A DNA stretch of 13,927 bases from Oscillospiraceae bacterium. Its GTDB lineage: Bacteria; Bacillota_A; Clostridia; Oscillospirales; Oscillospiraceae. Numbering within the stretch: the stretch's first letter is position 1; every line of letters begins with the position of its first letter. Position numbers and translations under genes: made by a program. The stretch is from positions 1-13,927 of the forward strand of contig JAGBEM010000018.1 of the NCBI GenBank assembly GCA_017936985.1. The letters are read 5' to 3'. Below, piece after piece: positions 1 to 13,927 of this stretch. The notes beneath the pieces are model-generated. The model searched no databases. It had not been told where the DNA came from and saw only the letters and a program-made list of their open reading frames with translations.

Positions 1-645
1 AAAGCTACTTCGTTTTGCAGATCCATATCCACGGGCACGCATAGAATCACCAGTAACCACACTGCCCTCTAAGGCCCAGCTTGTGAGTGCACCCAGAACC
101 GTTCCCCCGTCGTGCAGTTTTTCTTTTGTCGTAGCAGTTTCGCCGATACCTTTACCGATAGACTTTCTTGCACCGACGATCTGCTGCGTCTTCCGAATGA
201 AATTGGGGACCATACGGAACACCATTACCAGAAGCAGCGAGATGGACGGAATCAGATTACCAAACAGACTGGTAAGCTTATCTGAGGTCAGCACCTTATT
301 ATAGCAGCCAAACCACAGCATCATGATCACGAACATACTAGCAAGTGCCCCACCGTAGATCAGTGCTTCCAAAGTGTACCGTCTACCAAAAATCACAAAC
401 AGTTTTGTTATTCCCAGCGTGTTGAACAGCGGATTGATTACCGTTAGGATGGCAAACATAGGTAGCAGACTCAGTATAGTCTTCCAGCCCTTCTTGCCGT
501 TTAGGAGCAGATAGTAGATTGCTCCCGTTACGATTCCGGCAAACAGATATGCCGGGTGTTGGATCACCACCGACAGGCCGATAGCTCCCACAAAGAAAAG
601 GAAGTTTACCAGCGGGTGGCATTTGGAAAAAGCATCTTTCATCAT
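1..645 (-). CDS. ecfT: ECF transporter transmembrane protein EcfT (partial, C-terminus off the window)
   Basis: This is the energy-coupling transmembrane subunit of an ECF transporter (CbiQ/EcfT family). It links a substrate-binding S component to EcfA-type ATPases in the membrane. The frame is open for 215 codons from ATG 645 to the left edge. Several hydrophobic segments lie in the first 150 residues. The two arginine motifs that contact the ATPases are visible: ARK at about 159-161 and MRARGYG at 202-208. The family is usually about 250-270 aa, so roughly 50 residues are missing. The start codon overlaps the stop of the upstream 428-aa gene by one base (TGATG), which indicates translational coupling and one operon. 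No ATPase or S component lies in the window; they may lie beyond the left edge. The substrate is inferred to be a corrinoid only from the riboswitch and the upstream genes. Confidence 0.9.
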   Translation of the reverse strand, partial: MMKDAFSKCHPLVNFLFFVGAIGLSVVIQHPAYLFAGIVTGAIYYLLLNGKKGWKTILSLLPMFAILTVINPLFNTLGITKLFVIFGRRYTLEALIYGGALASMFVIMMLWFGCYNKVLTSDKLTSLFGNLIPSISLLLVMVFRMVPNFIRKTQQIVGARKSIGKGIGETATTKEKLHDGGTVLGALTSWALEGSVVTGDSMRARGYGSAKRSSF

Positions 646-1931
646 CAACCCATCTCCGGTGCGCCCACATCGGTACCAAGACCCTTACAGGTATAGCACC
701 ATACGATGGTCTCACCACCCTGCAGCGCATAGGAAGAACAGCCATAGTTGGGGAACCATCCGTTGACCTTATACATCCAGCCAGACTGACTGCCGCAGTC
801 GAACTCATAAAGGTTATTGATGCCTTCAATGTAATAGCTGTTATACATAGGTGTCCAGCTATACTCGATCTGGATGTCGTATTTGCTGCAGACTCTTTTC
901 AGCACATCAAAGACGGTTTCGCCTTCCTCAAACTCCACTGTGACTGTAGGCAGGATACAGCCGTTGCTGGGGACATAGCCGGCCTTCGACTGGTCCAGAT
1001 CGCTCCAGTTGTTCAGAATGGTATCGCACCGAATGGTAATCGTGCAGGTCAGCTTGCTCTCTGTGGCGGGAGGCACAGTCGTCTCAGGAGGCGTGGTAGT
1101 CTCGGGAGGTGTTGTGGTTTCCTGAGGGGGTGTAGTCTCAGTAGGCTTTGTGGGATCCTTTTCCGGTGCTGTCGTGCCGGTAGTGGGATCAGTAGTACCC
1201 GTTGTGGAATCTGTGGTATCTGTCGTGGGGTCTGTCGTACCGGGTGTAGGATCGGTAGGCGTGGTGCCGTACTTTTCAACCCAGCGTTCTGCCTCCAGCG
1301 CATCCAGCTCATCATTGGTAAAGCACAACGTTACAGTTTTATTGGCATTTCGGAGCTGGGTGATTGCAAAGTCATTCAAAGACTGGATCGTCAGCTCACT
1401 GATGTTAATTTCACCATTTATCCAGTTCAGCATCTGACCGGTCTGGGCTTCTCCCACAGCACCGGAGAATACACTAACAGTTTGAGCACCGCTGCGGACA
1501 CTGAGCAGCGCTACTATATTGCTGAACTCTGCGGTGTTATCCTCGAATGTGAGACTGGCAACAGATACGGTATTCACGAACACCTCGCCGAAGCTGACCT
1601 CTGCACGGAAACCGTCTGCAGCCGCTTCTTCAATATTCAAAACAGCGCTGTTGGATAGCGTCAGGCTGCCGTCTTTCAACTTTACAACGGCGGTAGTGCC
1701 GGAGTTACAGCTGAGCTTATCCCCGGAACGTAGGACTGTCCCGTTCTCCGCAGGATAGGACACGCCATCCCGTTCAATATTCACGATGCCACGAATCTCA
1801 CTGAGTACAGCATAAGATCCGTCATTGGTGTCAAACCAGCCCTGGATGTAACCTACACCCAGCACGCCGGCAGCGACGATCACCAAAATAATGGCGACCA
1901 TGATCAGGTTGGCGATCTGTTTTTTCTTCAT
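645..1931 (-). CDS. Membrane-anchored FecR-like / DUF4430 (transcobalamin C-terminal-like) protein
   Basis: A 428-aa exported protein. A lysine-rich start and one hydrophobic segment (about 8-30) form a signal anchor. Residues about 38-160 resemble a FecR-like beta domain (SYAVLSEIRGIVNIERDG, then a GEVFVN-type strand). Residues about 222-293 are a low-complexity Thr/Pro/Asp/Glu linker that would span the cell wall. Residues about 297-424 match DUF4430, the family related to the C-terminal beta domain of transcobalamin and intrinsic factor: EEGETVFDVLKRVC, then CGSQSGWMYKVNG and LQGGETIVW. The start is supported by GGAGGG (1939-1944) seven bases upstream of ATG 1931. It is the second cistron after the giant surface protein and overlaps ecfT. 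I infer it presents ligand to the ECF transporter. The domain types are seen; corrinoid binding is inference. Confidence 0.85.
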   Translation of the reverse strand: MKKKQIANLIMVAIILVIVAAGVLGVGYIQGWFDTNDGSYAVLSEIRGIVNIERDGVSYPAENGTVLRSGDKLSCNSGTTAVVKLKDGSLTLSNSAVLNIEEAAADGFRAEVSFGEVFVNTVSVASLTFEDNTAEFSNIVALLSVRSGAQTVSVFSGAVGEAQTGQMLNWINGEINISELTIQSLNDFAITQLRNANKTVTLCFTNDELDALEAERWVEKYGTTPTDPTPGTTDPTTDTTDSTTGTTDPTTGTTAPEKDPTKPTETTPPQETTTPPETTTPPETTVPPATESKLTCTITIRCDTILNNWSDLDQSKAGYVPSNGCILPTVTVEFEEGETVFDVLKRVCSKYDIQIEYSWTPMYNSYYIEGINNLYEFDCGSQSGWMYKVNGWFPNYGCSSYALQGGETIVWCYTCKGLGTDVGAPEMG

Positions 1932-1965
1932 TTTTCAGCCCTCCAAGCAGGATTTCTCTATCTAC

Positions 1966-2018
1966 ATAAAAACGCAAAAACCCATCCGGCAGAAAAACGC
2001 ATAGTTCTTCCGGATGGT
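1966..2018 (-). terminator. Intrinsic terminator or attenuator ahead of the FecR/DUF4430 gene
   Basis: On the minus strand an 8-bp perfect stem (CCATCCGG at 2017-2010 with CCGGATGG at 1989-1982) is followed by two runs of five U (about 1980-1967). It sits inside the operon, about 35 bases before the start codon at 1931. It could stop part of the transcripts after the giant gene, or be the switchable terminator of a leader RNA. Confidence 0.65.
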
Positions 2019-2102
2019 ACACAGTAATTGGACATACTGTGGCGGTATCCAAATTGTCATATATAAAATGCCGTATGGCATGAATGATCGAAGTTAAAAG
2101 AT

Positions 2103-2178
2103 GGGGCTGATTGTTTCCGGGGGCAATACGCAGAAGAAGGGGGAACAACCTCTGCACAGCCGAAAAGCAATCAGCCCC
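2103..2178 (-). repeat. Long stem-loop downstream of the giant surface-protein gene
   Basis: GGGGCTGATTG at 2103-2113 pairs perfectly with CAATCAGCCCC at 2168-2178. Inside it TTTCCGG (2114-2120) pairs with CCGAAAA (2160-2166), giving about 18 bp with one G-U pair and one bulge. An inner GCAGA/TCTGC pair is also possible. On the minus strand only four U residues follow, so a classic terminator is doubtful. Confidence 0.6.
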
Positions 2179-2231
2179 GTGAGTTTTTTAAGGTGGGTGG
2201 CGGGTAGAACCTGCCACCCTAAGCATAATAC

Positions 2232-5200
2232 TTATTTGCTGTACTTGCCAGCATGCTTGCGCTTGCGGTCTGCGACCAGCAGCGCAGCCAGTCCCGCAAC
2301 AGAGACCAGCATCAAGGAAGTATACAGTGCGATGTTGGTGTCATCGCCGGTCTGAGGATTGTTGGAAGTCTTGGGTGCTGTCCAGCCCACTGAAATGGGA
2401 GACAGACCGGTAACTTCAAACTGGATACCGTCCTTGGTCTTTGTTACCTTGGGCATCTCCACATCACCGGGAGTCTTGCCAAAGGCATTGCTTGTGAACA
2501 TATGGACCACAGTAAAGTTGTAGCTGCTGTCCGTTCCTGCAGGATAAGGAATGGTAATGATGATCTTTCCATTTGCCGGGAAGTGTGTCTCGTCAGCCTT
2601 GATCCATGTCTTGCCGCCGTCTTCGGTATACATCAAAGTAACATCGTAGTGGGCAACATTCTTCTGGTCAATTTCCTTATTCTTCTCGATAATGGCCTGC
2701 ACCATTTCCTGCTTAACCTCTTCGGTAGTGTCGAAACCGACCGCCTTCAGGCTGTCAGGAACTGCGGTAATGCCGCCTTCTGTGATTTCAACCTTTGTCT
2801 GAGGCTTGTTGGAATCGGTGGGATCCTCGGGAACATCGGGATTTTCGGCATTGATGGTCACATCACTCATATCGTACAGGCTGGTCTTATTTTCTTTGAA
2901 ACGGAAATATGCAGCCAGTGCGTAATAGCCCTGCTCAGATGCCATACCATTGACTTCCAAGAAGGATACATGCTTGAATCCGCCGCCCTCAACATAGTAG
3001 TCGCAAAGCGCATCTACAACGCTTCTGCCATCCTTGACAAATCTGCTATCTGTGTGAGGATCAATACCCAAAGCAGTCAGTGCAACGATTACCTGTGCAG
3101 CCGATTCCGCGCAAGCACCGTCAATGCTGCCAAAGCCGCCGTCATCGTGCTGGATCTCAGACAAACAGGTCAGCGCTTTATCCACAGCGGTCTTTACATC
3201 GGCGTTGGTTGTGTAATAGGGAGCCAGCGCAGTCAGAGCCATACCGGTCATATCCGGGTCAGCCTTGGTGCCAGACAGTGCCCAACCACCATCTGCAAGC
3301 TGTTTCTCCAAGATCACCTCAATCAGCTTCTCGCGCGTTACGTCACCACCGGTGGGGATCTCGTAATCGTGGGAATCGAATGCAATCAGTGCCCAGATAG
3401 GACCGTTGATACCCTGTTTCTTTACATAGGTCATATCTGTCAGGCCAACCAGCAGATTGTGACCGTCTACATCCGTCACATCGTAGCCAAGAGCAGTCAG
3501 CGCCAGGATCAGACGGGAATTCTCTGTGGACTTCGCTCTATGGAGCTGTTCCTTGTCATTGATATTCTCTTTGACAAATTTCAAAACTTCCGCATAGTAT
3601 GCGTTCACATTGGGAGTATCCCTGCCAGCACGTTCCAGACCAATAACGATCCATTCACCACCGGTAGAATTGACAGTTAAACCGTAGTCCTTAGCCAGTT
3701 TCTCCAGATAGTCGCCGGTGGTCTTGAAGATATTTTCAAAGTCAGCAGGCACTGTGGGATTGCTGGGGTTGCTGGGATCAGTAGAACTGCCAGTCTCGTT
3801 AACAGTCAGCAAAATACCGCCAGGTGCAGAGCAAATCTCGTCCGGATTTGTTTCACCGTAGCGACCGGCAACAGCAAAGACATACTCGCCAAGCTCGAAA
3901 TCAGTCAGCGTAACAGTCAGCTTTCCTTCTGCATCGGTTGTGCCGAGCTTGGTCCATGCAGTCACATCGCCAGAGGTCATTGTACCAGCCTTCGCGTAAT
4001 AGATGTCCAACTGAGCGTTGACCGGCGTATTGCTGCCACCGTTGCCCATATCCGCACCGGCACGGTAAACCTGGAGAACAACGGATTCATTCTTGGCAAC
4101 GACAGTATCGCCGTTGTTCACAGTAATATAGTTGAACACGCTGGTGGGATCGTCGTAGAAGGCCCAGTTTTCAAAATGACCGACCGTTACGACATCGCCA
4201 TCGCTCAATACGATACGGTCTGAGGTTGCACCGATAGTCGTTCCGGGATAAGTGGGATATTGATAGTTGAGATAGTAATTCAGGTTCTCATCATAACCCC
4301 AGAACTTATTCATATAGGACGAGCCTGCACTTCCCGTAATGGTCAATACATTTGTCCCCAGGATACCCTGTGTATACAGGTAGCCCTTACCGGCATCTGC
4401 CTTGTCGATACCGCAGTAGAATACCTCTGTTGCGTAGATATACAGGTGCATCGCAGTAACCTTGCCGTAGTCAGCAGAGGTTTCAGGAATCTTATACATA
4501 TCCAATCCGTAGAGAGACAGGTCAAAGTAAGGTACATCTACCTTCTGCAAAGCCAGCACCTTATTTGAAGCAACAGGCTTAACGAACTGTGCATCGTGGG
4601 AGACAGACAGATAGACAGAAACCGTATTGTCAATGTCTTGTTTCTTCTCCACAATAACCGTGCATTCAGCAGTAATATCACCCGCCTTGGCAGTGATCAC
4701 CACTGTGCCTTCCGCCTTGGTAGTAACCACACCATTTGCATCTACGGTTGCCACAGCTTCGTTAGAGGAATACCATGTAACAGTCTTATCTGTGGCAGTG
4801 TCGGGAGCAACAGTTGCAGACAGGTACAGAAGCTTGCCCGGCTCCAGCTTTGCGGAGGTCTGGTTCAGCTTCACTTCCGTAACCTCGATCGCCGGATTTA
4901 CAGTAACAAGGCAAGTGTCACTGAATTCGCCCACGGTAACGGTAATGGTAACCGTACCAGCGGCCTTAGCGGTGACTACGCCGTTTTCTACAGTAGCAAT
5001 CGTTTCGTCAGAGGAACTCCACTCTGCCTTGTCGGTGGTGTTTTCGGGGGCAAGGGTTGCTGCCAGCGTTACTTTTTCCGTGACCCGCAATTGGGCAGTT
5101 TCTTTGTCCAGTGTAACACCGGTAGCAGGAACGGGCGCAGGTTTCACTTTCAGAGTAATCTCAGGCAGTGTACCCAGATTCACTCCAGCGGGAGGTGTTC

Positions 5201-8200
5201 CGCTGGCCATACCAGAGCCGTTATAGCCCATATCTCTGTGGCCGCCGATCTCTTTGCCGCCAAAACCGCCGGCAACAATGTAGCCATTAAGGGTAAGGGT
5301 TTCTGCGGACCAGTCAGCAGGTATGGTAACTGTCAGCTTCTGGGGGGTGCAGCTAAAATCGTAACGACCATAGGTAGAGCCGCTGCTGTTCTTGTAGGCG
5401 TTGCCGTTGTCATCAAAATAGGAAATCTGCCAGTTGAAGTTGTAGGCGGTAGCCAACTTTTCAGCGGGGCTGGTTAGACCGGTGATGGTAACTGTGACGG
5501 TATCACCAGCATTTAATTGCGTATTTTCATCAACAGGATTGCCTTCCGCATCCTTGATGTCTACGGTCACCTGCTGGGCAGTAACCACCTGGTAGGTGTA
5601 AACGCCATCCTTTTCCACGCGGATGATGTGGCGTCCGGTGGTCAGACCGGAAACCGTAACAGTGCCGTCCTCAGCGACAGTCACGCCGTCCGCGGTAAAC
5701 TGGCTGAAGGTCAGCGTTTCCGCGCCTACGGTGCTGCGGTTCACGGTGACGGTGCAGCCGCTTTCCGGCTTGAAGGAGACGCTTGCGCCGGCAGTGCCGG
5801 TATAGAACTGAGGAGAATGCTCCGCATCAAAGGCCTTGCCGTTGCAGGTCATATTGGTGGTAATCGCAGAGCCATCCTTGCCAACGCTGACCACAAACAC
5901 ACCGGTGCGGTCCGGCCAAATGGCAGAAAAGCGATTTGCTCCACCGGCTCCGCCGCCGGCACCGGAGGCAGTCAACTCGCTGTACATGGCATCGTAGGTC
6001 ACCAGCACAATAGCTGTACCCTCGTTCTTTGCTGTCAGCAATGCCTTTGCCGAATTGTTTGCATCCGGCTCGATGGTTATAACATCGCTGCCCTCCAGGG
6101 TTATGATCTCGTAGCTGAAGTCCGGCAGGGCGATCTTTGCATTGGTAAAGCTCTCAATTGCCTGCCAGTTGCGGAATACATTCAGCTGCTTGGTACCGCC
6201 TACATTCAAATCGATATAGCCCTTGGGGTTGATATTCATATAAATATCACCCAGGTCCAGGGCATACTTCTCGAAATTGCGATACACGGTGTTGGAATCA
6301 AAATCGCCGTTATCGTTCATAAAGAGCATTTCTTCGGTAACGGTAATGGTTTTTCCGTTCGCCTTGGAAGACTCATAATCCCAATAGGTAACGGCATCGG
6401 GATCGTCGGGCCGCTGGACGCGGATAAAGGAATTGTAGCCAAGGGGCGAGAATTTATAGATCACGGTGCTGCCCTCGGTGACCACACTGATGGGTGTGGA
6501 GAAATTATAACCAAAGGAACCGCTGAGAGTGCCTGCGGAAACCACAGAGCCAGCGGGTGCAATGACTGTGAAGTGCTCTTGCACAAGGCTGATTTTGTTT
6601 TCGCCGTTGACAGGTGTATAGTCTGTCAACGAAACACCGTTGTAACTGCTGACAGTGGCAGTAGCGCTGACAGAATAAGAAACACCATCCAGTAGCAGGA
6701 AGCTGTTGGCATTGCCTGCTGCTGCCACATTATCGTACTTGACGGTCACGGCAGCATTAGCATCCTCGGTTTCCCCTGCCAAGACCTTGAAATCAGCCTT
6801 TATAAGTACCAGTTCACTGCCAGCAGATACTGCAGTGCTCATGCCCATGCCGTCAGCGCGCCATGCGATGTGGGAAGCATTGCTGGGAACTTCAACGGTG
6901 TAGATATTACCGGAAGCTGCGGCGGTCAAGGAATTGCCCAATGCCCCAGTTTCGTCAGAAACATAGAACTCAGGTGTAACACCTGTAGGAACAGCAACTT
7001 GCACATCAAAGGTCTGCGCGGAGTCATTTACAGTCAGATTGACCGTATAGACCTGCTCGGAGTAACCCTTGCCGTCAAATGCCCGGAAGGAAAGGGCGTA
7101 TTCGCCGGAAAGGTCATTGCTGTATGTAAATGCAGTGTCGCAAGCGGTCCAATCGCCATCGCCAACTTTATACTGATAGGTCAGGCTGTCGCCGTCCGCA
7201 TCGGTAAACAGCGGAGAAAGATCCAGTTCATAATTCTTTCCTGCGTCTACACTGGCAGTAGCAGAGGAATCGCCTGCCAGTTTCGGCAGCTCGTTGACCA
7301 TAGAGAAGGTCAGCGTCCAAGTCTCATAGGGATTGTCACGCAAGCTGGGTGTTACATTGTACAAATAGAAAGTGAATGTTGCAGCACCGGCACTGAGTGT
7401 GATGTCCTTCTCAGTAAATTTATTGTTCACAGCTTTTCCGGAGGAAGTTCCGGAAACGCCGGTCTTTGTGGTAATGAAAGGCAGATCGCCAGTCTGAGTC
7501 AAATCAAAGGTTGCCTTGACTTTGCCATCAATAGGGTAATCCTTGGGCAATACCACGTTGATCGTTGTACCCTCAAGCGTTACCAGAAGATCATCGATCT
7601 TATTTCCGTTGGCATCGGTAAACAGCACATAATTCAGGCCTCCGTTGCTGGTCTCTTTGCCGATCCAGATGCCACTTTCAAAGGCTGTCACATTCACCGT
7701 GATGGTCACATAGTCCGGGCAATCACCGACCACATTGGATGCAGCGAAAACAAGAGCGTGCTCGCCACCCTCAAAGGTCAGGAAGTTGTATTTACTGCCT
7801 TCCAGAGCCTGCTTCTCCTGGCCGTTGACCAGATAATAGGTTTTAGCTTTGCTGAAGTAATCCTTCAGATTCAGTTCCAGGCCAACACCGGTATAAGTAG
7901 AAGCGGTATCCGTCTCCTTCAGCCGGATCGGCACAACGGTCGGAATCTCTTCCCGGAGAAATACCAGCTTATAGGTGGCAGTGCCCCGGGAAATACGACC
8001 ATTATATTTTGCGTCCAGAGTCAGGCTCAGTTCCCCTTTGCCGCCGCTCAGTGTCACAGTTCCTGTCGCACCTTCCACCGTAAATTTGTTGGTCGGTGTG
8101 TCGAAGGTCACATTGACAGCGGCATCTGCTGCAGTATCGCTTGTGAGCACTACGTAGATGGTGGTTCCGTCTTCATAGGCTTCCAGAACATTAGCCCCTT

Positions 8201-9446
8201 CGACCATGACCGCCACAGTCTTTCCATAATAGCTTGAAATCGAACCGATGGTTTTGTCGGTAATATCGATTACATTGCCTGCCACCGGGATCTCATTTCC
8301 GGTAATTTCAATCGGCTTTGAAACGGTCACCACACACTCTGCGGTAAAGCCACCATCCTTAGTCGTGGCAGTGATGGTAGCTGTACCGGCAGCAACACCG
8401 GTGACAACACCATCGGCAACCGTGGCGACATTTTCATCCGTAGATGTCCAAGAGACCGTCTTATCCGCAGCATTTTCCGGGGTAACCGTTGCGGTCAGGG
8501 TTACAGTTTCACCCACATTGACAGAAGCAGTCTGCTGATCCAGGGAAACACCGGTAACTGCCACAGGCTTTTCAAACCGCACAGCCACATCGTCATAAGC
8601 GAAGTAGGCGGGCTGGGAGAAACCGTAGCCATTGTCACTGGAACCGGTAACATTGAATTCTACCCTGGTAATTTTGCCCAGACCGGACAAATCCCACTTG
8701 GTCCAGTCCATAACAATGTTGTCCGGGCCGTTGACCAGATAAAACTCCGCGGTACCGGTGGTGGTATCGCCGTTGTAGCCGGTAGCCACCAGTTTGACCC
8801 AGTCACTTTCCCCGATGCTGGCAGTCAATCCGTTGCCATCCACATAGCAGCCAATCGCATAGACTGTGTTATTGACATACATATGGTCAATAACCCGTGC
8901 CTCACCGTCGGCAAAGGACAGCACTGGCACTTCTTCGGCCATATTATAAGGAGAGCCGTCCATATAGCCGTAGTGAACAGCAAAGTTGTTGGAGCCGTTG
9001 TGGCCGCCGCCAGAGGTCAGCATTCCGCTGACGTCCTGTTTGAACACGGTAAGCTGTTCGTTGTATCCGAAAGATTCTACATCGCCAGAAACATAGTTGG
9101 AAACAGCGTGGCCGCCGCTCCAGTAGCACCAGGAACCATAGGCCGCACAGATGGTGTGGGTCAGTTCCGTGTTGTTCTTGTCATACCAGCTGTAGGCTTC
9201 CTCTTTGCTGGAATAGCCCATACCATCACCGTACAGCAGAGGGCCGCCATACTGGCTGCTGTCTACAAGGGATGTCCAATCGTTTCCACCGGCAAAATTG
9301 GTTTCGCCCTTGTAATCCGCATCCTCAAAGGTAAGGGTGCGCAGCTCATAGTCTGCTTCTGTGGATACCGCAAATACATTTGCAGGCAGCATTCCCAGCA
9401 CCATAACAATTACAAGGAGCAGGGAAAGCAATCGTTTCTTCATCAT
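2232..9446 (-). CDS. Giant cell-wall-anchored surface protein: DUF4465, Big_2, DUF4430-like and alpha/alpha-barrel (transcobalamin-like) domains
   Basis: A 2404-aa exported surface protein. The signal peptide is about 1-26, ending VFA. Residues about 35-290 match DUF4465: TFEDADYKG, GSNNFAVHYG, MYVNNTVYA, WVKLVATGY and SQPAYFAYDDVAV. Big_2 Ig-like domains lie at about 296-377, 1440-1516 and 1518-1602, and a cadherin/Ig-like stretch at about 716-810. A DUF4430-like region is at about 1604-1800 (ENLNYYLNYQYP, IVLSDGDVV). A Ser/Pro linker follows, then a prenyltransferase-type alpha/alpha barrel at about 1905-2193 (QLADGGWALSG, PDMTGMALTAL, QHDDGGFGSIDG). The C-terminus carries NPQTG at 2363-2367, a membrane segment and a KRK-rich tail, a sortase signal. 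AGGAGG lies 5 bases before ATG 9446 and 8 before ATG 9443, so either may be used. A cobalamin riboswitch precedes it. Corrinoid capture is inferred; residues 380-715 and 810-1435 are not recognised. Confidence 0.88.
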   Translation of the reverse strand: MMKKRLLSLLLVIVMVLGMLPANVFAVSTEADYELRTLTFEDADYKGETNFAGGNDWTSLVDSSQYGGPLLYGDGMGYSSKEEAYSWYDKNNTELTHTICAAYGSWCYWSGGHAVSNYVSGDVESFGYNEQLTVFKQDVSGMLTSGGGHNGSNNFAVHYGYMDGSPYNMAEEVPVLSFADGEARVIDHMYVNNTVYAIGCYVDGNGLTASIGESDWVKLVATGYNGDTTTGTAEFYLVNGPDNIVMDWTKWDLSGLGKITRVEFNVTGSSDNGYGFSQPAYFAYDDVAVRFEKPVAVTGVSLDQQTASVNVGETVTLTATVTPENAADKTVSWTSTDENVATVADGVVTGVAAGTATITATTKDGGFTAECVVTVSKPIEITGNEIPVAGNVIDITDKTIGSISSYYGKTVAVMVEGANVLEAYEDGTTIYVVLTSDTAADAAVNVTFDTPTNKFTVEGATGTVTLSGGKGELSLTLDAKYNGRISRGTATYKLVFLREEIPTVVPIRLKETDTASTYTGVGLELNLKDYFSKAKTYYLVNGQEKQALEGSKYNFLTFEGGEHALVFAASNVVGDCPDYVTITVNVTAFESGIWIGKETSNGGLNYVLFTDANGNKIDDLLVTLEGTTINVVLPKDYPIDGKVKATFDLTQTGDLPFITTKTGVSGTSSGKAVNNKFTEKDITLSAGAATFTFYLYNVTPSLRDNPYETWTLTFSMVNELPKLAGDSSATASVDAGKNYELDLSPLFTDADGDSLTYQYKVGDGDWTACDTAFTYSNDLSGEYALSFRAFDGKGYSEQVYTVNLTVNDSAQTFDVQVAVPTGVTPEFYVSDETGALGNSLTAAASGNIYTVEVPSNASHIAWRADGMGMSTAVSAGSELVLIKADFKVLAGETEDANAAVTVKYDNVAAAGNANSFLLLDGVSYSVSATATVSSYNGVSLTDYTPVNGENKISLVQEHFTVIAPAGSVVSAGTLSGSFGYNFSTPISVVTEGSTVIYKFSPLGYNSFIRVQRPDDPDAVTYWDYESSKANGKTITVTEEMLFMNDNGDFDSNTVYRNFEKYALDLGDIYMNINPKGYIDLNVGGTKQLNVFRNWQAIESFTNAKIALPDFSYEIITLEGSDVITIEPDANNSAKALLTAKNEGTAIVLVTYDAMYSELTASGAGGGAGGANRFSAIWPDRTGVFVVSVGKDGSAITTNMTCNGKAFDAEHSPQFYTGTAGASVSFKPESGCTVTVNRSTVGAETLTFSQFTADGVTVAEDGTVTVSGLTTGRHIIRVEKDGVYTYQVVTAQQVTVDIKDAEGNPVDENTQLNAGDTVTVTITGLTSPAEKLATAYNFNWQISYFDDNGNAYKNSSGSTYGRYDFSCTPQKLTVTIPADWSAETLTLNGYIVAGGFGGKEIGGHRDMGYNGSGMASGTPPAGVNLGTLPEITLKVKPAPVPATGVTLDKETAQLRVTEKVTLAATLAPENTTDKAEWSSSDETIATVENGVVTAKAAGTVTITVTVGEFSDTCLVTVNPAIEVTEVKLNQTSAKLEPGKLLYLSATVAPDTATDKTVTWYSSNEAVATVDANGVVTTKAEGTVVITAKAGDITAECTVIVEKKQDIDNTVSVYLSVSHDAQFVKPVASNKVLALQKVDVPYFDLSLYGLDMYKIPETSADYGKVTAMHLYIYATEVFYCGIDKADAGKGYLYTQGILGTNVLTITGSAGSSYMNKFWGYDENLNYYLNYQYPTYPGTTIGATSDRIVLSDGDVVTVGHFENWAFYDDPTSVFNYITVNNGDTVVAKNESVVLQVYRAGADMGNGGSNTPVNAQLDIYYAKAGTMTSGDVTAWTKLGTTDAEGKLTVTLTDFELGEYVFAVAGRYGETNPDEICSAPGGILLTVNETGSSTDPSNPSNPTVPADFENIFKTTGDYLEKLAKDYGLTVNSTGGEWIVIGLERAGRDTPNVNAYYAEVLKFVKENINDKEQLHRAKSTENSRLILALTALGYDVTDVDGHNLLVGLTDMTYVKKQGINGPIWALIAFDSHDYEIPTGGDVTREKLIEVILEKQLADGGWALSGTKADPDMTGMALTALAPYYTTNADVKTAVDKALTCLSEIQHDDGGFGSIDGACAESAAQVIVALTALGIDPHTDSRFVKDGRSVVDALCDYYVEGGGFKHVSFLEVNGMASEQGYYALAAYFRFKENKTSLYDMSDVTINAENPDVPEDPTDSNKPQTKVEITEGGITAVPDSLKAVGFDTTEEVKQEMVQAIIEKNKEIDQKNVAHYDVTLMYTEDGGKTWIKADETHFPANGKIIITIPYPAGTDSSYNFTVVHMFTSNAFGKTPGDVEMPKVTKTKDGIQFEVTGLSPISVGWTAPKTSNNPQTGDDTNIALYTSLMLVSVAGLAALLVADRKRKHAGKYSK

Positions 9447-9507
9447 ACATTCCTCCTAAATAAGATGTATCTGATCGCCATATGGCGTTATATAGGGTCA
9501 GCCGGCT

Positions 9508-9527
9508 CATACTGTTCAAGCAGTATG
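9508..9527 (-). promoter_or_regulatory. Leader hairpin between riboswitch 1 and the giant gene
   Basis: CATACTG (9508-9514) and CAGTATG (9521-9527) form a perfect 7-bp hairpin in the 5' leader. No U tract follows on the minus strand. It may be part of the riboswitch expression platform; the mechanism is not visible. Confidence 0.45.
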
Positions 9528-9537
9528 TGTGCTTAAG

Positions 9538-9556
9538 CTGTGCAAAGGATGCACAG
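9538..9556 (-). promoter_or_regulatory. Hairpin abutting riboswitch 1 (possible P13 with UCCUU loop)
   Basis: CTGTGCA (9538-9544) pairs perfectly with TGCACAG (9550-9556), directly against the 3' end of the aptamer P1. In the RNA the loop reads UCCUU. This is the place where cobalamin riboswitches carry the P13 hairpin whose loop kisses L5. The loop could also pair with the AGGA of the ribosome binding site (9452-9457). Both roles are inference. Confidence 0.45.
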
Positions 9557-9779
9557 TTTGTAGGTCTTCTGACTTACGCGTTCAGATTACTCAGCGATTC
9601 CATTCCGCCTTCTCAGGATTGCTCCCAATGACCTGCTTTCGCAGAAAGAATGGAATCTTCGCGCTTACAGCACAGCAGCCATGCTGCCGTATTCCGGTTT
9701 TGCACCGGATTCCCTTGTTCAGCCGAACAAGAATGCGTGTCCTTTGGTTCTTCCATTCGGGTCGCGCATTTGCCACAAA
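9557..9779 (-). promoter_or_regulatory. Cobalamin riboswitch 1
   Basis: On the minus strand the conserved cobalamin aptamer elements occur in the right order: GGGAATCCGGTGCAAAACCGG (9714-9694), a CTGTAAGCGC core (near 9671-9661), GTCATTGG (9632-9625), CTGAGAAGGC (9616-9607) and the B12 box AAGTCAGAAGACCTAC (9575-9560). P1 can close between 9779-9773 and 9564-9557, with one G-U pair. It lies upstream of the giant surface-protein gene, with a leader of about 110 bases that contains two hairpins but no U-tailed terminator. Cobalamin binding normally represses the downstream genes. I see no convincing promoter between it and the gene that ends at 9829. Confidence 0.93.
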
Positions 9780-9828
9780 GTAAGCCGGGTGTATCGAATC
9801 CGCCTTGCGGCGGTTGTTTTCTTATGTA

Positions 9829-10233
9829 TCAAACAGGCTGTTTCTTTTTTGCCTGCTGTGCTCGTCGCTGCTGAGCACACAGCTTTTTCTCCGCTTTTTT
9901 CTGGCGGTAGATTACCTCCTGTCTGGCCCGTTCCTCTTGAATACGGGCGAAGTTAGACAGATTATCCGGTATGCTTGGCCGGGGCAGTCTGGCACGAAAC
10001 AAAGCATTTTTCCAGGTGCCAAATCGCTGCTCGATATAGCTTCCTCCGACGATCTCTCTCGGCCAGGGTGTATGACCCAATTGAATGGTATTTTGACGCA
10101 AGTATGCAAGAAGCTGTTCATCTGTATCAGAACTGTGTGCTTCTAAGAATTCCTGCTCCTGTTTCTCTAGAGCCTGGGTAACCATACGCTTGATCGTTGC
10201 CTCATAAATATTGTTTCTTCCTGCGTATCCCAT
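9829..10233 (-). CDS. Small basic protein with homing-endonuclease-associated repeat
   Basis: A 134-aa protein. Residues about 50-85 (LGHTPWPREIVGG, then IEQRFGTWKNALFRARLP) match the short repeat found beside HNH homing endonucleases, with its typical GxTP ... RFGxWxxAL pattern. The last 45 residues are a charged Lys/Arg/Gln-rich helix, likely to bind nucleic acid. No nuclease catalytic motif is present. The start ATG 10233 follows AAAGGAAA at a suitable distance. The gene lies 110 bases downstream of the DUF2292 gene and ends 50 bases before riboswitch 1, so it sits between two cobalamin riboswitches on the same strand. It may be co-transcribed from the promoter at 10830-10857. Its role is unknown. 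Confidence 0.75.
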   Translation of the reverse strand: MGYAGRNNIYEATIKRMVTQALEKQEQEFLEAHSSDTDEQLLAYLRQNTIQLGHTPWPREIVGGSYIEQRFGTWKNALFRARLPRPSIPDNLSNFARIQEERARQEVIYRQKKAEKKLCAQQRRAQQAKKKQPV

Positions 10234-10250
10234 AGATTTCCTTTCTGTGG

Positions 10251-10352
10251 GACAAATAAAAAAGCCCGGAATGACAGAGATACACTTTCCCTATCTTTCC
10301 GAACTTCGGTTCTTCCGTCAGTTCTTAAACACTGTAGACTATTTTATTTGTC
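10251..10352. repeat. Inverted-repeat-flanked structured spacer
   Basis: GACAAATAAAA (10251-10261) and TTTTATTTGTC (10342-10352) are an 11-bp perfect inverted repeat around 80 bases. The right arm overlaps the DUF2292 stop codon. Inside, CGGAA/TTCCG (10267-10271/10297-10301) and AGATA/TATCT (10278-10282/10292-10296) can pair. On the minus strand this leads into six U (10263-10258), so the spacer may act as a weak terminator after the DUF2292 gene. GAAC-TTCG-GTTC (10301-10312) is an alternative hairpin. Confidence 0.5.
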
Positions 10353-10505
10353 ACTGGGTAATTGAATGCTCCTGCGAATCTCTTCTACACGAATCGGATG
10401 ACGGTCCTTGATCATCACCCGTACCTCACCGTAGTCCAAAGAACGGATGACCTCGATCAGCTTTTTTTCTGCATTGGTCAATACAATATTTGTATCAGCT
10501 TGCAT
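10344..10505 (-). CDS. DUF2292 family small protein
   Basis: A 53-aa protein of the DUF2292 type, a family of about 50-65 aa with no known function. The sequence shows the family pattern: a helix (NAEKKLIEVIRSL), DYGEVRVMIKDRHPIRVEEIRR, then an end in SIQL. I chose ATG 10505 rather than an upstream in-frame start (10700) because GGAGG (10514-10518) lies eight bases before it, and because the longer frame runs through the riboswitch and its terminator. It is the first gene after riboswitch 2, separated only by the terminator, so its expression should fall when cobalamin is abundant. A link between this family and corrinoid metabolism would be new to me. Confidence 0.82.
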   Translation of the reverse strand: MQADTNIVLTNAEKKLIEVIRSLDYGEVRVMIKDRHPIRVEEIRRSIQLPSDK

Positions 10506-10522
10506 TCTAAACACCTCCAAAC

Positions 10523-10556
10523 AAAAAAACTGCGGCAGTACCAAGTACCGCCGCAG
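10523..10556 (-). terminator. Riboswitch 2 intrinsic terminator (expression platform)
   Basis: On the minus strand CTGCGGC-x-GTAC (10556-10545) pairs with GTAC-x-GCCGCAG (10541-10530), a stem of 11 pairs with one mismatch. Seven U (10529-10523) follow immediately. It lies between the aptamer and the DUF2292 ribosome binding site, as expected for ligand-induced premature termination. Confidence 0.9.
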
Positions 10557-10618
10557 CCGTTTTTCTGCGCAACTACAAAAGCCCTTTGCCCATCGCTCGG
10601 GTACAAAGAAGCGATCCA

Positions 10619-10803
10619 TTCCCGTAGGTCTTCTGACTTGTGTCTCAAGCAATAACCTGTCTGCCTTCTCAGAAAAACTCCAATGACTGACTTTCGTCAA
10701 CGGCAGGCTATCTCGACACTTACAGCGCCGGCAGCGTGGGGACTCTCACCCCATTATCTTGTTCAGCCGGATCGCCTAACTCCGATCAACCCGGCCACGG
10801 GAA
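10619..10803 (-). promoter_or_regulatory. Cobalamin riboswitch 2
   Basis: The minus strand carries GGGGTGAGAGTCCCC (10752-10738), a GCGCTGTAAGTG core (about 10728-10717), GTCATTGG (10687-10680), CTGAGAAGGC (10672-10663) and the B12 box AAGTCAGAAGACCTAC (10639-10624). P1 closes between 10803-10797 (TTCCCGT) and 10625-10619 (ACGGGAA), seven perfect pairs, which fixes the aptamer ends. Beyond it a hairpin with ATCGCT/AGCGAT arms (about 10617-10594) fits the P13 position, followed by the terminator. It shares a 12-base stretch CGGCTGAACAAG and the whole B12 box with riboswitch 1. It controls at least the DUF2292 gene. Confidence 0.95.
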
Positions 10804-10829
10804 CAACTATAGAATTATCCATCGGTTGC

Positions 10830-10857
10830 ATTATAACACAAAACCGCCGAAAGTCAA
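10830..10857 (-). promoter_or_regulatory. Sigma-70-type promoter of the riboswitch 2 transcript
   Basis: On the minus strand TTGACT (10857-10852) and TATAAT (10835-10830) are separated by 16 bases. Transcription would start near 10823, about 20 bases upstream of the riboswitch P1. Confidence 0.85.
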
Positions 10858-10909
10858 CCGCATATAAGGACGAAATTCACAACTTTCAGTTTTCGTTTTT
10901 GGTGGATTC

Positions 10910-11446
10910 TTACACAAAAACGAACATACCGAAAAGGAATAACTTTTCCGGTACCCATGCGAATTCCATCTGACACTTTTCCGCCAGCTTGGCTACATCG
11001 ATGCAGTAAGCGGACATACAGCTGATCTTCTGCTCCGGATGAGCGCAGGGCTCATTGTTGACTCGCTTGCAGGGGTCGCACAGAGGGCAGCCACCATAAC
11101 CCAGGCAAAAGCCATTGATCCCCTCCTTGCGAAGAGTCTCTGTAAAACGAAGAATGGCAGCATTGTGCGCTTTCTTGGATTGCTGGATCCCCTCCTTATT
11201 GTCGTAGCTGCCAATCTCCCAAATAGATTGCAGCACCAATGCCCGCTTTCCCGCTTTCAGCCGTTCCTGCACTTCCTCTACTGTGCCGCAATCCGGCGGA
11301 CAAGAATAGTTGGCATTATACTTACCGCAGAGATTATCTTCGCAGAACTTTCGAAAGGACGGGTCCTGCACAACATCTGCCGTATCAACAAAGGCTGCAG
11401 AGAAACCCATTTCATCAGCTAATTTTACAATATCATTGTCAGTCAT
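10910..11446 (-). CDS. DUF2284 family putative metal-binding protein
   Basis: A 178-aa cysteine-rich cytoplasmic protein of the DUF2284 family, often annotated as predicted metal-binding. The conserved cysteine signature is clear: C-x4-CGKYNANYSCPPDCG near residues 33-52, then CLGYGGCPLCDPCK, CAHPEQKISCMSAYCIDV in the C-terminal third. These clusters suggest bound metal or an Fe-S centre; that is inference. The frame is open up to 11557, but I chose ATG 11446: it starts the family-like sequence, has AAGG about nine bases upstream, and lies just downstream of a good promoter. It ends 50 bases before the riboswitch 2 promoter, without an obvious terminator. It is probably a separate unit, not riboswitch-controlled. 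Any role in corrinoid chemistry would rest on location alone. Confidence 0.85.
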   Translation of the reverse strand: MTDNDIVKLADEMGFSAAFVDTADVVQDPSFRKFCEDNLCGKYNANYSCPPDCGTVEEVQERLKAGKRALVLQSIWEIGSYDNKEGIQQSKKAHNAAILRFTETLRKEGINGFCLGYGGCPLCDPCKRVNNEPCAHPEQKISCMSAYCIDVAKLAEKCQMEFAWVPEKLFLFGMFVFV

Positions 11447-11474
11447 ATACAATCGACCTTTCTTTTTTTCTTCT

Positions 11475-11503
11475 ATTCTATCGATGCAACAACCAAAATT
11501 CAA
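11475..11503 (-). promoter_or_regulatory. Promoter of the DUF2284 gene
   Basis: On the minus strand TTGAAT (11503-11498) and TAGAAT (11480-11475) have the optimal 17-base spacing. The predicted transcript starts about 20 bases before the chosen start codon at 11446. Confidence 0.65.
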
Positions 11504-11574
11504 CCCCTTAGAATGTGCATTTATACTCACCCAGCCTAGAGAGTGTAGCAGATACAATATCTAAAAGTGTTAGA

Positions 11575-12090
11575 CTATTCCGGTAATTGAATACTTTTGG
11601 CCATACGGAAGATATCCGCTTCAGCGATGGTGTCTGCACTATACTCGATTACGCAACTGACCTCCGGAGATATAGTCCAGCAGAGATAGGAACGCTCGCC
11701 CATTTCGCACCGGAATGCGTCATACGCATTTACCTTGCAATCCCGTCTGTTTTGGATCTGGGCAAAGTCGATCACCATACCGATTGCATCCGTGTTAAGC
11801 ACAGTATTCTCCCCATACTCATCTTCAATGTAGGTCGTCTGGCAGCAATAATAGACGATCTTGTTCCCTTCAGAATCAGTATAGGTAAATGGCGTTACCT
11901 TGGAGATAGACTGACATTCGTAATCTTCGTCCACTTCTTTTAGGGCGTTTTCCATGTTGTAGATCTGCTCAGCAAGCTTCCAGTTAGGATCAGTCTGGCG
12001 ATTTCGCACTTCAATCCAGCGACAAACACCCAGAATGACCAGCACAAGCAAGATAATGATTCCGGCGCACCATAGTAATTTCTTTTTCAT
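11575..12090 (-). CDS. Small membrane-anchored protein, possibly DUF4367-like
   Basis: A 171-aa protein with a Lys-rich start and one strong hydrophobic helix (about 4-23), then an outward-facing domain. The domain has features reminiscent of DUF4367: PFTYTDSEGNKIVYYC, an aromatic and acidic core, and a final IAEADIFRMAKSI helix. Identification is uncertain. Its ATG (12090) overlaps the stop of the upstream SLOG gene by four bases (ATGA), so the two are translationally coupled; the longer frame to 12216 would lie inside that gene and is rejected. It contains several cysteines in the extracytoplasmic part (about residues 58, 80-81, 116, 128, 137, 144). The function is unknown, but it presumably works with its coupled partner. 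I see no clear terminator after it. Confidence 0.75.
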   Translation of the reverse strand: MKKKLLWCAGIIILLVLVILGVCRWIEVRNRQTDPNWKLAEQIYNMENALKEVDEDYECQSISKVTPFTYTDSEGNKIVYYCCQTTYIEDEYGENTVLNTDAIGMVIDFAQIQNRRDCKVNAYDAFRCEMGERSYLCWTISPEVSCVIEYSADTIAEADIFRMAKSIQLPE

Positions 12091-12554
12091 AAATTTATCC
12101 CCATCCCCTCGGCAATGTTTGTAATTTGAATAAGCCCTTTCTTTTCTCGGCGCTGGGCATATTCCAAGAGATTTCTCGAATTGCTGGCTCCGTGGCGCAC
12201 ATAGCAGACCAGCCAATCGCAGGTATCCACCATAAGCTGATTGGCTTTTACGATTGCAAATGGTCTTGGCGTCTTCTCCAGCCCTTCCGGATAATATGTC
12301 CCATCATAACCGGGCGGCTTTTCGATGGGGCGCTCTGCAGGGTGATATGGCAGCACCAACATCAGTGTGATATCCGGGTGTTGCTTTTTCGCTCTCTTTA
12401 CAGCAATGGCAGCTATTTGATCAAAGCCACCGTATCCGCCCACATAAAAATAGCGAACATTTTCTGACCTTATGAGCCGTTCAATTTCCAATTCCAGTCT
12501 GGGGAGTAAACCCTCACCGGCCTCCCGATGGCCTATAAAGAAACAGCTCTTCAT
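12087..12554 (-). CDS. SLOG-family (DUF1273-like) protein
   Basis: A 155-aa cytoplasmic protein with a Rossmann-like SLOG fold pattern. It starts with CFFIGHR, has the glycine-rich loop YVGGYGGFDQIAA near residues 37-50, a LMLVLPYHP strand-turn, and a C-terminal DWLVCYVRHGASNSRNLLEYA segment. SLOG proteins are thought to bind nucleotide-derived ligands and often work as sensors or in conflict systems. The start ATG 12554 follows GAGGTG (12563-12568) at eight bases. It is the first gene of a two-gene operon with the membrane protein and is divergent from an XRE regulator. A TATAAT lies about 35-40 bases upstream of the start codon; its -35 region overlaps an AACGATA motif, which suggests control by that regulator. 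Confidence 0.85.
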   Translation of the reverse strand: MKSCFFIGHREAGEGLLPRLELEIERLIRSENVRYFYVGGYGGFDQIAAIAVKRAKKQHPDITLMLVLPYHPAERPIEKPPGYDGTYYPEGLEKTPRPFAIVKANQLMVDTCDWLVCYVRHGASNSRNLLEYAQRREKKGLIQITNIAEGMGINL

Positions 12555-12569
12555 AGTACAGTCACCTCA

Positions 12570-12657
12570 TATCGTTTTGTTGTTTAGTAGATTATAGTTT
12601 AACATAACTATATTAACGATACAAGTCTTTAGTATATTACTGTCACTTTTAACGATA
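12570..12657. promoter_or_regulatory. Divergent promoter region with repeated AACGATA motifs
   Basis: TTAACGATA occurs at 12613-12621 and again at 12649-12657, 36 bases apart. An inverted copy TATCGTT lies at 12570-12576. On the minus strand TATAAT (about 12591-12596) would serve the SLOG gene. The repeats are good candidate operators for the adjacent XRE protein and could give autoregulation plus control of the SLOG operon. Confidence 0.5.
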
Positions 12658-12689
12658 AAATAAGGTTAATAAAGAAAGGTGGCGGTACT

Positions 12690-12998
12690 ATGGATGTTCA
12701 CGAGAAATTGCAGTACTTGTTGAATGAACGTGGTTGGACAAAATATCAATTGGCGAGAAAATGTGGCTTGAGCGATGCCACCATCGCAAACATCTTCCGC
12801 AGGAACACCATGCCCTCCATCCCCACACTGGAAGCGATCTGCCAAGGCTACGGTATAACCTTATCCCAATTCTTTGCTGAGGGAGAGATGGTGGAATTGA
12901 CCCCTGATTTGAAAGAAGTGTTTGATTGCTGGACATCCCTTTCTCCAGAGCAGAAGGTAGCAGCAGGACAGATGCTGAAAGCAATGAATCAAAAATAG
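12690..12998 (+). CDS. XRE-family helix-turn-helix transcriptional regulator
   Basis: A 102-aa DNA-binding protein. Residues about 5-62 form a Cro/C1-type HTH: LNERGWTKYQLARKCGLS, DATIANIFRRN, then the typical IPTLEAICQGYGITLSQFF. The C-terminal 35 residues (LTPDLKEVFDCWTSLSPEQKVAAGQML) are a short helical tail, probably for dimerisation. No ligand-binding or protease domain is present. ATG 12690 has AAGGTGG (12676-12682) seven bases upstream. It diverges from the SLOG-family operon, with repeated AACGATA motifs in the shared spacer, so it most likely controls that operon and itself. It is followed by a strong terminator. Confidence 0.9.
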   Translation: MDVHEKLQYLLNERGWTKYQLARKCGLSDATIANIFRRNTMPSIPTLEAICQGYGITLSQFFAEGEMVELTPDLKEVFDCWTSLSPEQKVAAGQMLKAMNQK

Positions 12999-13014
12999 AG
13001 GAGCATAATAATTT

Positions 13015-13050
13015 AGAGGATGCCGTCTTTTGGACAGCATCCTCTGTTTA
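13015..13050 (+). terminator. Intrinsic terminator after the XRE gene
   Basis: AGAGGATGC (13015-13023) pairs perfectly with GCATCCTCT (13037-13045). The inner GTC/GAC (13025-13027/13033-13035) extends the stem around a TTTTG loop. A U-rich tail GTTTATT follows. Confidence 0.85.
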
Positions 13051-13071
13051 TTGAGTGGATGAGCTTTTTAA

Positions 13072-13099
13072 TTGATTTCTGGCCGATATGGTGTATAAT
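13072..13099 (+). promoter_or_regulatory. Promoter of the PNPOx-like gene
   Basis: TTGATT (13072-13077) and TATAAT (13094-13099) lie 16 bases apart. Transcription would start near 13106, about 40 bases before the start codon at 13149. Confidence 0.8.
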
Positions 13100-13148
13100 A
13101 GTGGCAGATAGTAAGGGAGATAATACGCAAGTTATTGGAGGTAATGAT

Positions 13149-13541
13149 ATGGAAAGAGTATGCAAATTTCTGAAAGATGCCGGTGTTTACTATCTGGCAA
13201 CAGTGGAAGGCGATCAGCCCCGTGTCCGTCCCTTTGGAACCGCCAACATTTTCGAAAACAAGCTGTACATACAGACAGGCAAGGTCAAGCTCTGCTCCAA
13301 GCAGATCCTGGTAAACCCCAAGGTGGAAATCTCCGCTTTCCATCAAGGTACCTGGATTCGCATTGCCGGCGAGTTAGTAGAGGATGACCGTATCGAAGCG
13401 AAAAAGTCCATGCTGGATGCTTACCCAAACCTGCGTGGCATGTACGACGAGAATGACGGCAATACGCAGGTGTTTTATTTCCGTAACGCCGTAGCCACCT
13501 TCTCTTCCTTCACTTCCGCACCGGAAACTGTAGAGTTCTAA
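13149..13541 (+). CDS. Pyridoxamine 5'-phosphate oxidase-family (FMN-binding split barrel) protein
   Basis: A 130-aa protein of the short PNPOx-like family, flavin-binding split beta-barrels that act as small oxidoreductases or flavin/F420-type binders. Visible family features are the opening helix (VCKFLKDAGVYYLATVEGDQP), RVRPFGTANIFENKLYIQTG, a KVEISAFHQGTWIRIAGELVEDD strand pair, and a C-terminal QVFYFRNAVATFSSF strand. I chose ATG 13149 because GGAGG (13137-13141) lies seven bases before it and the promoter TATAAT ends at 13099; the longer frame from 13020 would begin inside the preceding terminator. It is monocistronic as far as can be seen. Its substrate and cofactor cannot be read from sequence. 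Confidence 0.88.
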   Translation: MERVCKFLKDAGVYYLATVEGDQPRVRPFGTANIFENKLYIQTGKVKLCSKQILVNPKVEISAFHQGTWIRIAGELVEDDRIEAKKSMLDAYPNLRGMYDENDGNTQVFYFRNAVATFSSFTSAPETVEF

Positions 13542-13575
13542 AGACCAGATTTTGCACCATATTATGAGGGAAGCC

Positions 13576-13603
13576 TTGAAATATTTATGCTTTGTGTTAT
13601 AAT
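13576..13603 (+). promoter_or_regulatory. Orphan promoter-like sequence
   Basis: TTGAAA (13576-13581) and TATAAT (13598-13603) are 16 bases apart, a near-consensus promoter. Downstream there is only a 14-codon frame (13608-13652) with no ribosome binding site. It may drive a small RNA, a decayed gene, or a gene beyond the window. Confidence 0.55.
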
Positions 13604-13690
13604 GAATATGGACTATATGAACGCACAAGAAAACGGCAAAATGATGATGTAGTGAAGCGCAAAATTTGCACTGTATTTCCTCAAAAACTG

Positions 13691-13709
13691 TGACCAACTT
13701 TTGACCAAC
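13691..13709. repeat. Direct repeat TGACCAAC x2, 11-base period
   Basis: TGACCAAC at 13691-13698 and 13702-13709. One helical turn of spacing is typical for arm-type sites of tyrosine recombinases; that role is inferred. Confidence 0.5.
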
Positions 13710-13732
13710 AAAAGTCCGGTAAAAGAAAATAA

Positions 13733-13772
13733 CTGGTATAATAGCACTATATCTCGAAGGCTAATATACCAG
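13733..13772. repeat. Imperfect 12-bp inverted repeat over an extended -10 (TGGTATAAT)
   Basis: CTGGTATAATAG (13733-13744) and CTAATATACCAG (13761-13772) match at 11 of 12 positions as an inverted repeat. The left arm contains TGGTATAAT, an extended -10 promoter element (TATAAT at 13737-13742) with no good -35. It may be a regulated promoter or a recombination-protein site. Confidence 0.45.
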
Positions 13773-13807
13773 CAACCACTACATATCTACAAAGCCAAAA
13801 ATCCGCC

Positions 13808-13822
13808 ATCGAGTGGGAATGA
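13808..13822 (+). other. guaA 3'-end-like attachment core (putative att site)
   Basis: ATCGAGTGGGAATGA reads as Ile-Glu-Trp-Glu-stop, the conserved C-terminus of GMP synthase. The bases upstream in the same frame (LQSQKSA) are not GMP synthase. This fits a duplicated attachment core left by an element integrated into the 3' end of guaA, a known integration hot spot. It is also flanked by a TCGAG/CTCGA inverted repeat (13809-13813/13825-13829). Whether the element lies to the left or is tandem cannot be decided here. Confidence 0.5.
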
Positions 13823-13880
13823 CGCTCGAAACGGCGAAAACCCGCATGAATACAGGCTTTTTTGCCCGTCCATACTGCTC

Positions 13881-13899
13881 TTGATACTGGATTGATACT
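13881..13899. repeat. Direct repeat TTGATACT x2, 11-base period
   Basis: TTGATACT at 13881-13888 and 13892-13899, again phased by 11 bases, on the other side of the att-like core. This mirrors the TGACCAAC pair to the left. Confidence 0.5.
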
Positions 13900-13927
13900 A
13901 TTTGTGTCCGCCCGGTATTCTCAAGAG

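Follow-up and report, generated by a model that had tools for sequence, protein, structure and literature searches.

A predicted riboswitch-controlled surface system for corrinoid capture in a Clostridia-type bacterium, with the toroid and its likelier DUF4430 partner encoded by neighbouring genes

What is the function of a very large wall protein whose gene lies behind a cobalamin riboswitch, and with which domain would its barrel close around a ligand? These questions are raised by a stretch of 13,927 nucleotides (nt) from an Oscillospiraceae bacterium (assembly GCA_017936985.1, contig JAGBEM010000018.1, positions 1 to 13,927), referred to in its entirety as the window. A first-pass annotation of the protein had described the two modules of animal transcobalamin and intrinsic factor in reversed order, a DUF4430-like region preceding a prenyltransferase-type barrel. 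We propose, with a probability of about 0.82, that the window encodes the surface part of a riboswitch-controlled uptake operon for B12 or other corrinoids in a Clostridia-type bacterium, which would capture its ligand at the wall and deliver it to an energy-coupling factor (ECF) transporter. The large protein is laid out as follows.

2232..9446, minus strand: surface protein of 2404 residues (open reading frame, with the N-terminal signal sequence seen directly)
8586..9134, minus strand: DUF4465 domain, residues 105-287, a jelly roll like that of the B12-binding BtuJ (PF14717, E 2.2e-37)
8328..8561, minus strand: first Ig-like domain of the Big_2 type, residues 296-373 (PF02368, three stretches, whole-protein E 4.8e-35)
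4047..4637, minus strand: DUF4430-like region, residues 1604-1800, a remote relative at best (hhalign E 8e-4, 24.6%)
2847..3734, minus strand: alpha/alpha toroid (barrel), residues 1905-2200
2235..2360, minus strand: NPQTG sorting signal, hydrophobic stretch and basic tail, residues 2363-2404 (TIGR01167, TIGR03063)

The proposed anchoring by sortase was borne out by the reading frame, the signal sequence and a C-terminus of the LPXTG type, in which NPQTG at residue 2363 is accompanied by a hydrophobic stretch and a basic tail (TIGR01167, 16.3 bits with a cut-off of 15.9; TIGR03063, 15.9 bits with a cut-off of 18.15). Identity as a NEAT/IsdC protein was rejected, the TIGR03656 match being limited to residues 2283-2387 with 22.4 bits against 155.85. 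A relative of 2418 residues has an identical layout, and a scan of viral contigs with the large protein found no relatives there. A scan of genome contigs gave 233 relatives, of which the best 80 yielded 77 related loci (labels beginning with L), many of them cut by contig ends. Their record titles are mostly those of Lachnospiraceae, Oscillospiraceae, Ruminococcus and other Clostridia-type or Bacillota metagenome-assembled genomes (MAGs), with one Bacteroidales MAG (L029).

Judged from its sequence, the DUF4465 domain, absent from the first-pass annotation, is the best evidence for corrinoid binding within the large protein. It matches PF14717 with 129.5 bits (cut-off 25) and can be aligned to the structures 9I2L and 9HMU, which are named as B12 complexes in the accessible part of PMC13398666. 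The same part of that paper reports B12 binding for eight distantly related members of the family, describes members as binders of complete cobalamin and lists Bacillota as a minor clade (Clarke et al. 2026, PMC13398666). The window domain contains the motifs NNTVYA at 192 and QPAYF at 278, which we assign through motif and alignment, rather than structure, to the DE helix and HI loop described in the available text of PMC13398666. The tyrosines of both motifs are kept in all five aligned sequences, window included, and the HI motif reads QPAYF in the window, QPGYF in four relatives and GTPAYF in PMC13398666. DUF4465 was present in five of 120 listed homologues of the large protein, the window's own among them, and no PF14717 match turned up among 391 genomes sampled from the class to which the L006 genome belongs.

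Downstream of the large gene are the genes for a clear DUF4430 protein and a transporter subunit.

645..1931, minus strand: protein of 428 residues with an N-terminal hydrophobic segment and a C-terminal DUF4430 (PF14478, E 1.5e-19, residues 337-414)
690..923, minus strand: the DUF4430 domain proper, of the transcobalamin beta-domain family (PF14478, 70.6 bits against 23.8)
1..648, minus strand: EcfT-like transporter subunit, cut by the window end (phmmer to EcfT-like reading frames of the loci)

The hydrophobic segment of the 428-residue protein is a predicted membrane anchor, and its gene overlaps the EcfT-like gene by 4 nt. The EcfT-like fragment has no direct Pfam match, and its assignment comes from phmmer matches to the EcfT-like reading frames of the loci (E down to 5e-111) and to a more distant one at L004 1694-2575 (1e-33), which itself matches PF02361 CbiQ with 25.7 bits (cut-off 25). 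This gene set recurs. In 50 of the 77 loci, no more than 1.5 kb separates a toroid gene from a small DUF4430 gene on the same strand, and an EcfT homologue lies within 15 kb, likewise in 50. Locus L004 also encodes EcfA, an S component, a CbiQ-like protein and CobT, the latter (PF02277, E 1e-117) adjoining the operon.

Upstream, the riboswitch annotated before the large gene was confirmed, yet there are two rather than one. Both exceed the RF00174 gathering threshold of 31.5 bits, and the Rfam search places both on the strand of the 2404-residue reading frame. In the order of the minus strand, and ahead of the large gene, the features are these.

10830..10857, minus strand: putative sigma-70 promoter, hexamers TTGACT and TATAAT at a spacing of 16 nt, the latter preceded by TG (11 of 12 consensus positions)
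10606..10817, minus strand: cobalamin riboswitch 1 (RF00174, 55.0 bits, E 1.4e-11)
10528..10558, minus strand: intrinsic-terminator-like hairpin just 3' of riboswitch 1 (14-pair stem, then a T run)
10344..10505, minus strand: small reading frame of 53 residues like YezD/DUF2292 (PF10055, E 2.6e-4, 21 bits with a cut-off of 22)
9829..10233, minus strand: HNH_repeat protein of 134 residues (PF18780, E 3e-10)
9545..9747, minus strand: cobalamin riboswitch 2, about 100 nt 5' of the large gene (RF00174, 50.9 bits, E 2.1e-10)

The first hairpin suggests an expression platform of the transcription type for riboswitch 1, and the leader 3' of riboswitch 2 contains a predicted hairpin covering the ribosome-binding site and start codon (9430-9575, z -3.2). 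Since the two riboswitches occur together with a promoter-like site, and with a terminator-like hairpin and small genes between them, the window may contain a single transcription unit that would be checked by B12 at two points.

The linkage to cobalamin riboswitches extends to the related loci. A riboswitch model, R1, built from 16 riboswitches of the window and loci, matched 48 of the 77 loci at E <= 0.01, and 36 of the 65 outside its building set; 55 of its 59 matches were on the strand of the toroid gene. In 39 loci a match precedes a toroid, DUF4430 or EcfT gene by at most 600 nt, where an overlap with the longest frame was accepted if it did not exceed 200 nt. Among the 63 loci offering at least 300 nt 5' of the toroid reading frame, a match to R1 was present in 45 and absent in 18. 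At the Rfam gathering score, a search of 33 loci (0.52 Mb) gave 23 cobalamin riboswitches, distributed over 14 of them. By comparison, 16 genomes (about 41.3 Mb), hand-picked and in some cases chosen because a riboswitch was already known, contained 59 RF00174 matches at E <= 0.001, a density that predicts about 0.7 in 0.52 Mb. A match was present in 14 of these genomes, over the cut-off in 12, and absent from those of L034 and L050. The sole match of the genome lies just 5' of the toroid operon in four of the 16, namely Ruminococcus bromii ATCC 27255, 5AMG and YE282 and one Ruminococcaceae MAG, with two of the four scoring 27 bits, below the cut-off of 31.5. In L063 the sole match reaches into the toroid gene's longest frame.

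Several further observations concern these riboswitches and the small genes beside them. Short cobalamin riboswitches of 133-136 nt occur at L042 8872-9007, L045 8921-9056 and L061 8912-9044, the last aligned without much of the model's middle; since two of the three score 27 bits, below the cut-off, they would be missed by routine annotation. Divergent pairs are found at L001 100-990, L004 7179-7656, L008 1343-1819 and L064 1490-1957. At L005 1313-4992 there are three cobalamin riboswitches in series, of which the first two are each followed by a reading frame of 94 residues and then a DUF4430 lipoprotein-like gene of 138 residues, these two genes seeming identical across the compared parts, and the third precedes the gene for a DUF4430 protein of 450 residues. 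A Clostridiales-1 small RNA (RF01699) lies at L036 7101-7259, with a cobalamin riboswitch of the minus strand on one side and a DUF4430 gene on the other. In the window, a DUF2284 metal-binding protein (10910-11443, E 2.8e-39) is encoded upstream of riboswitch 1, and its sole match among the 77 loci (2e-67) is at L064 8564-9112, directly 5' of a fused toroid-DUF4430 gene. The YezD/DUF2292-like protein has one homologue (4e-11), at L050 5956-6192, just 5' of a toroid gene. Weak homologues of the HNH_repeat protein (E 3e-4 to 1e-7) are present in four of the 77 loci, at L053 3503-3940, L070 4099-5154, L072 546-1667 and L075 18361-18642, standing just 3' of a cobalamin riboswitch in L053 and L072 and just 5' of EcfT in L070 and L072. 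A B12-linked DNA-binding role for this protein is conceivable.

The barrel annotated at about 1905-2193 is firmly predicted by modelling to be an alpha/alpha toroid over residues 1905-2200, with the match to Prenyltrans PF00432 (residues 2036-2127) remaining below threshold (E 0.0059, 16.5 bits with a cut-off of 26.5). The best single-domain fold matches of the toroid are terpene cyclases, and these were also the best matches when profile A1 (residues 1604-2200) was searched against PDB sequences (E 5.8e-4), where no transcobalamin appeared at E <= 1. Together with the Pfam name, these matches would suit a reading in which the toroid acts as an enzyme, on sugars or as a terpene cyclase or prenyltransferase, and the protein is an adhesin or enzyme of the cell surface that is near riboswitches by chance. 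The DxDD motif is the catalytic motif of class II terpene cyclases, however, and is missing from all 120 aligned barrel segments (of 248 found), and the repeated association with cobalamin riboswitches and with DUF4430 and ECF genes also argues against this reading; we consider an enzyme very improbable. The Foldseek list for the 1604-2200 model was headed by macroglobulin, complement and cyclase chains, with transcobalamin at rank 19. A complement-like thioester protein was rejected despite heading that list, since GCGEQ is absent from the same 120 segments. Within the uptake system that we favour, a related question is the ligand, which might be a precursor or part (cobinamide, alpha-ribazole or cobalt) imported by the ECF transporter in place of complete cobalamin. 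Cobalamin riboswitches control precursor uptake too, a related EcfT is CbiQ-like, and the CobT gene beside the L004 operon would fit cobamide remodelling. For the S components of L004 and L064, the Pfam riboflavin-type S-component model scores over the cut-off and NCBIfam folate and riboflavin models below it, and neither component received a B12-specific NCBIfam name. The binding of complete cobalamin reported for DUF4465 members in the accessible part of PMC13398666 argues the other way, and we regard a precursor as unlikely.

It remains to ask which domain would pair with the toroid. The annotation of residues 1604-1800 as DUF4430-like is weak, since PF14478 gave no match to this region even at E <= 10. 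Similarity emerged when 42 segments like it were compared by hhalign with 110 DUF4430 segments (E 8e-4, probability 24.6%, 38 columns), centred on GS...Y.N..YP...DGD, with five control comparisons giving E 0.05-0.76. The region is a conserved family in its own right, and in predicted models its order of strands and helices agrees with that of true DUF4430, the latter modelled at low confidence. Foldseek listed no separate match for it from the 1604-2200 model, which is uninformative since one domain fills the lists. It is possible that the region is a very divergent DUF4430. If so, it could itself close on the toroid around a corrinoid in reversed order, in place of the DUF4430 of the next gene. 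This would agree with the hhalign similarity, with a beta or beta-like domain being common before the toroid of a single chain (a profile scan of the 120 listed homologues gave the arrangement L-A 11 times and L-A-b-A 19 times, and b-A was seen in many loci) and with both orders having been reported in bacteria in 2007, in the accessible part of PMC1796856. However, the region lacks any Pfam match, about 100 residues separate it from the toroid, and the toroid-only genes of L010, L034 and L072 are followed by the DUF4430 gene. Furthermore, a natural fusion, the 545-residue relative of L064, is a toroid-TM-TM-DUF4430 protein (TM, transmembrane segment) in the domain order of the animal carriers, and its DUF4430 resembles that of the window's next gene, whose 428-residue product matches the fused relative with 61% over 145 residues. 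The 12 best Foldseek PDB matches of its model are all transcobalamin chains, and it matches transcobalamin-type carriers over both domains, the DUF4430 placement being of low confidence. We therefore consider pairing within the large protein rather unlikely, and pairing of the toroid with the DUF4430 of the next gene the likelier. With the clear DUF4430 partner encoded by the following gene, the toroid comes first and DUF4430 second along the operon, in agreement with the animal carriers. The transcobalamin-like module pair for B12 capture that had been annotated is well supported at the level of the operon and family, with the pairing of 1604-1800 and 1905-2200 less supported, and the reversed order is retained within the protein, where the beta-like region precedes the toroid, but not across the genes. 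As a novelty the reversed order was set aside, both orders being published for bacteria (PMC1796856, accessible part) and found in the related loci.

The computations show the domains, the riboswitches, a recurring gene set, a family of fusions and similarities of fold; from these we infer binding by each of the modules, pairing in trans, hand-over and repression. The large protein would be exported and then fixed to the wall, where its N-terminal DUF4465 domain would capture extracellular cobalamin, with the Ig-like domains presumably serving as a spacer. Close to the wall anchor, the toroid would hold the corrinoid jointly with a DUF4430 beta-grasp domain, most likely that of the membrane-anchored product of the next gene, and the corrinoid would then be passed to the ECF transporter whose EcfT gene follows. 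When cobalamin is abundant, the two riboswitches would shut the operon. The DUF4465 head would represent a second capture site, with hand-over between the sites. We tentatively suggest a relay from this head, far from the membrane, to the wall-proximal toroid, to a membrane-tethered DUF4430 lid (a split transcobalamin) and on to the ECF transporter, and note that this is a possibility to which we give somewhat less than even chances.

The system can be compared with several known ones. Animal transcobalamin, intrinsic factor and haptocorrin likewise consist of a toroid and a DUF4430 beta domain, and the fused relative matches both. Unlike these carriers, the window's toroid and clear DUF4430 are on separate surface-tethered proteins, and whereas an animal carrier is taken up whole, transfer to a transporter would be expected here. 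In the Isd haem relay of staphylococci, wall-anchored receptors hand a tetrapyrrole-type ligand to a membrane importer; this likeness would be one of analogy only, the domains and ligand being unrelated. Closer are the bacterial toroid/beta-grasp (SLBB) fusions described in the accessible part of Burroughs et al. 2007 (PMC1796856), in either order and secreted or wall-anchored, whose operons also encode a further SLBB paralogue and CbiO/CbiQ-like proteins and whose predicted role is B12 scavenging. These proteins and that of the window share wall anchoring or secretion, a beta-grasp domain with a toroid and predicted B12 scavenging, but the beta-like region of the window (1604-1800) is very divergent. 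The window protein is very probably a B12 scavenging device of the design predicted in 2007. No mention of DUF4465, a cobalamin riboswitch or a toroid-TM-TM-DUF4430 fusion was found in the accessible part of PMC1796856, and we regard the DUF4465 head, the tandem riboswitches and riboswitch linkage, the fused family and, as a possibility, the two-site capture and relay as new beyond that work. BtuJ1 and BtuJ2 of Bacteroides, as described in the available portions of PMC12751083 and PMC13398666, belong to the same DUF4465 family, have both motif tyrosines and come from a locus under B12 riboswitch control, but are Gram-negative lipoproteins, whereas the DUF4465 of the window is one domain of a 2404-residue wall protein. 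ECF-CbrT (PMC5997447, accessible part) is likewise an ECF-type cobalamin importer, but there CbrT itself binds cobalamin, and that part of the paper contains no DUF4430 or toroid partner; no CbrT-named model was among the matches of the S components of L004 and L064. In the literature searched, which left most subscription journals outside, we found no paper testing extramembrane B12 capture by a Gram-positive gut bacterium and none on DUF4465 fused with a transcobalamin-like pair.

B12 is scarce and contested in the gut. With short soluble fragments, the 2007 prediction of bacterial transcobalamin-like scavengers becomes testable, as does the idea that the animal carriers were acquired from such bacteria. 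Furthermore, a domain that binds B12 and has been known chiefly from the FCB (Fibrobacteres, Chlorobi and Bacteroidetes) group appears here on a Gram-positive wall protein. Should the tentatively suggested relay exist, it would be a two-site corrinoid relay in a Gram-positive wall, and the fused toroid-DUF4430 family would represent a bacterial arrangement near that of the animal carriers.
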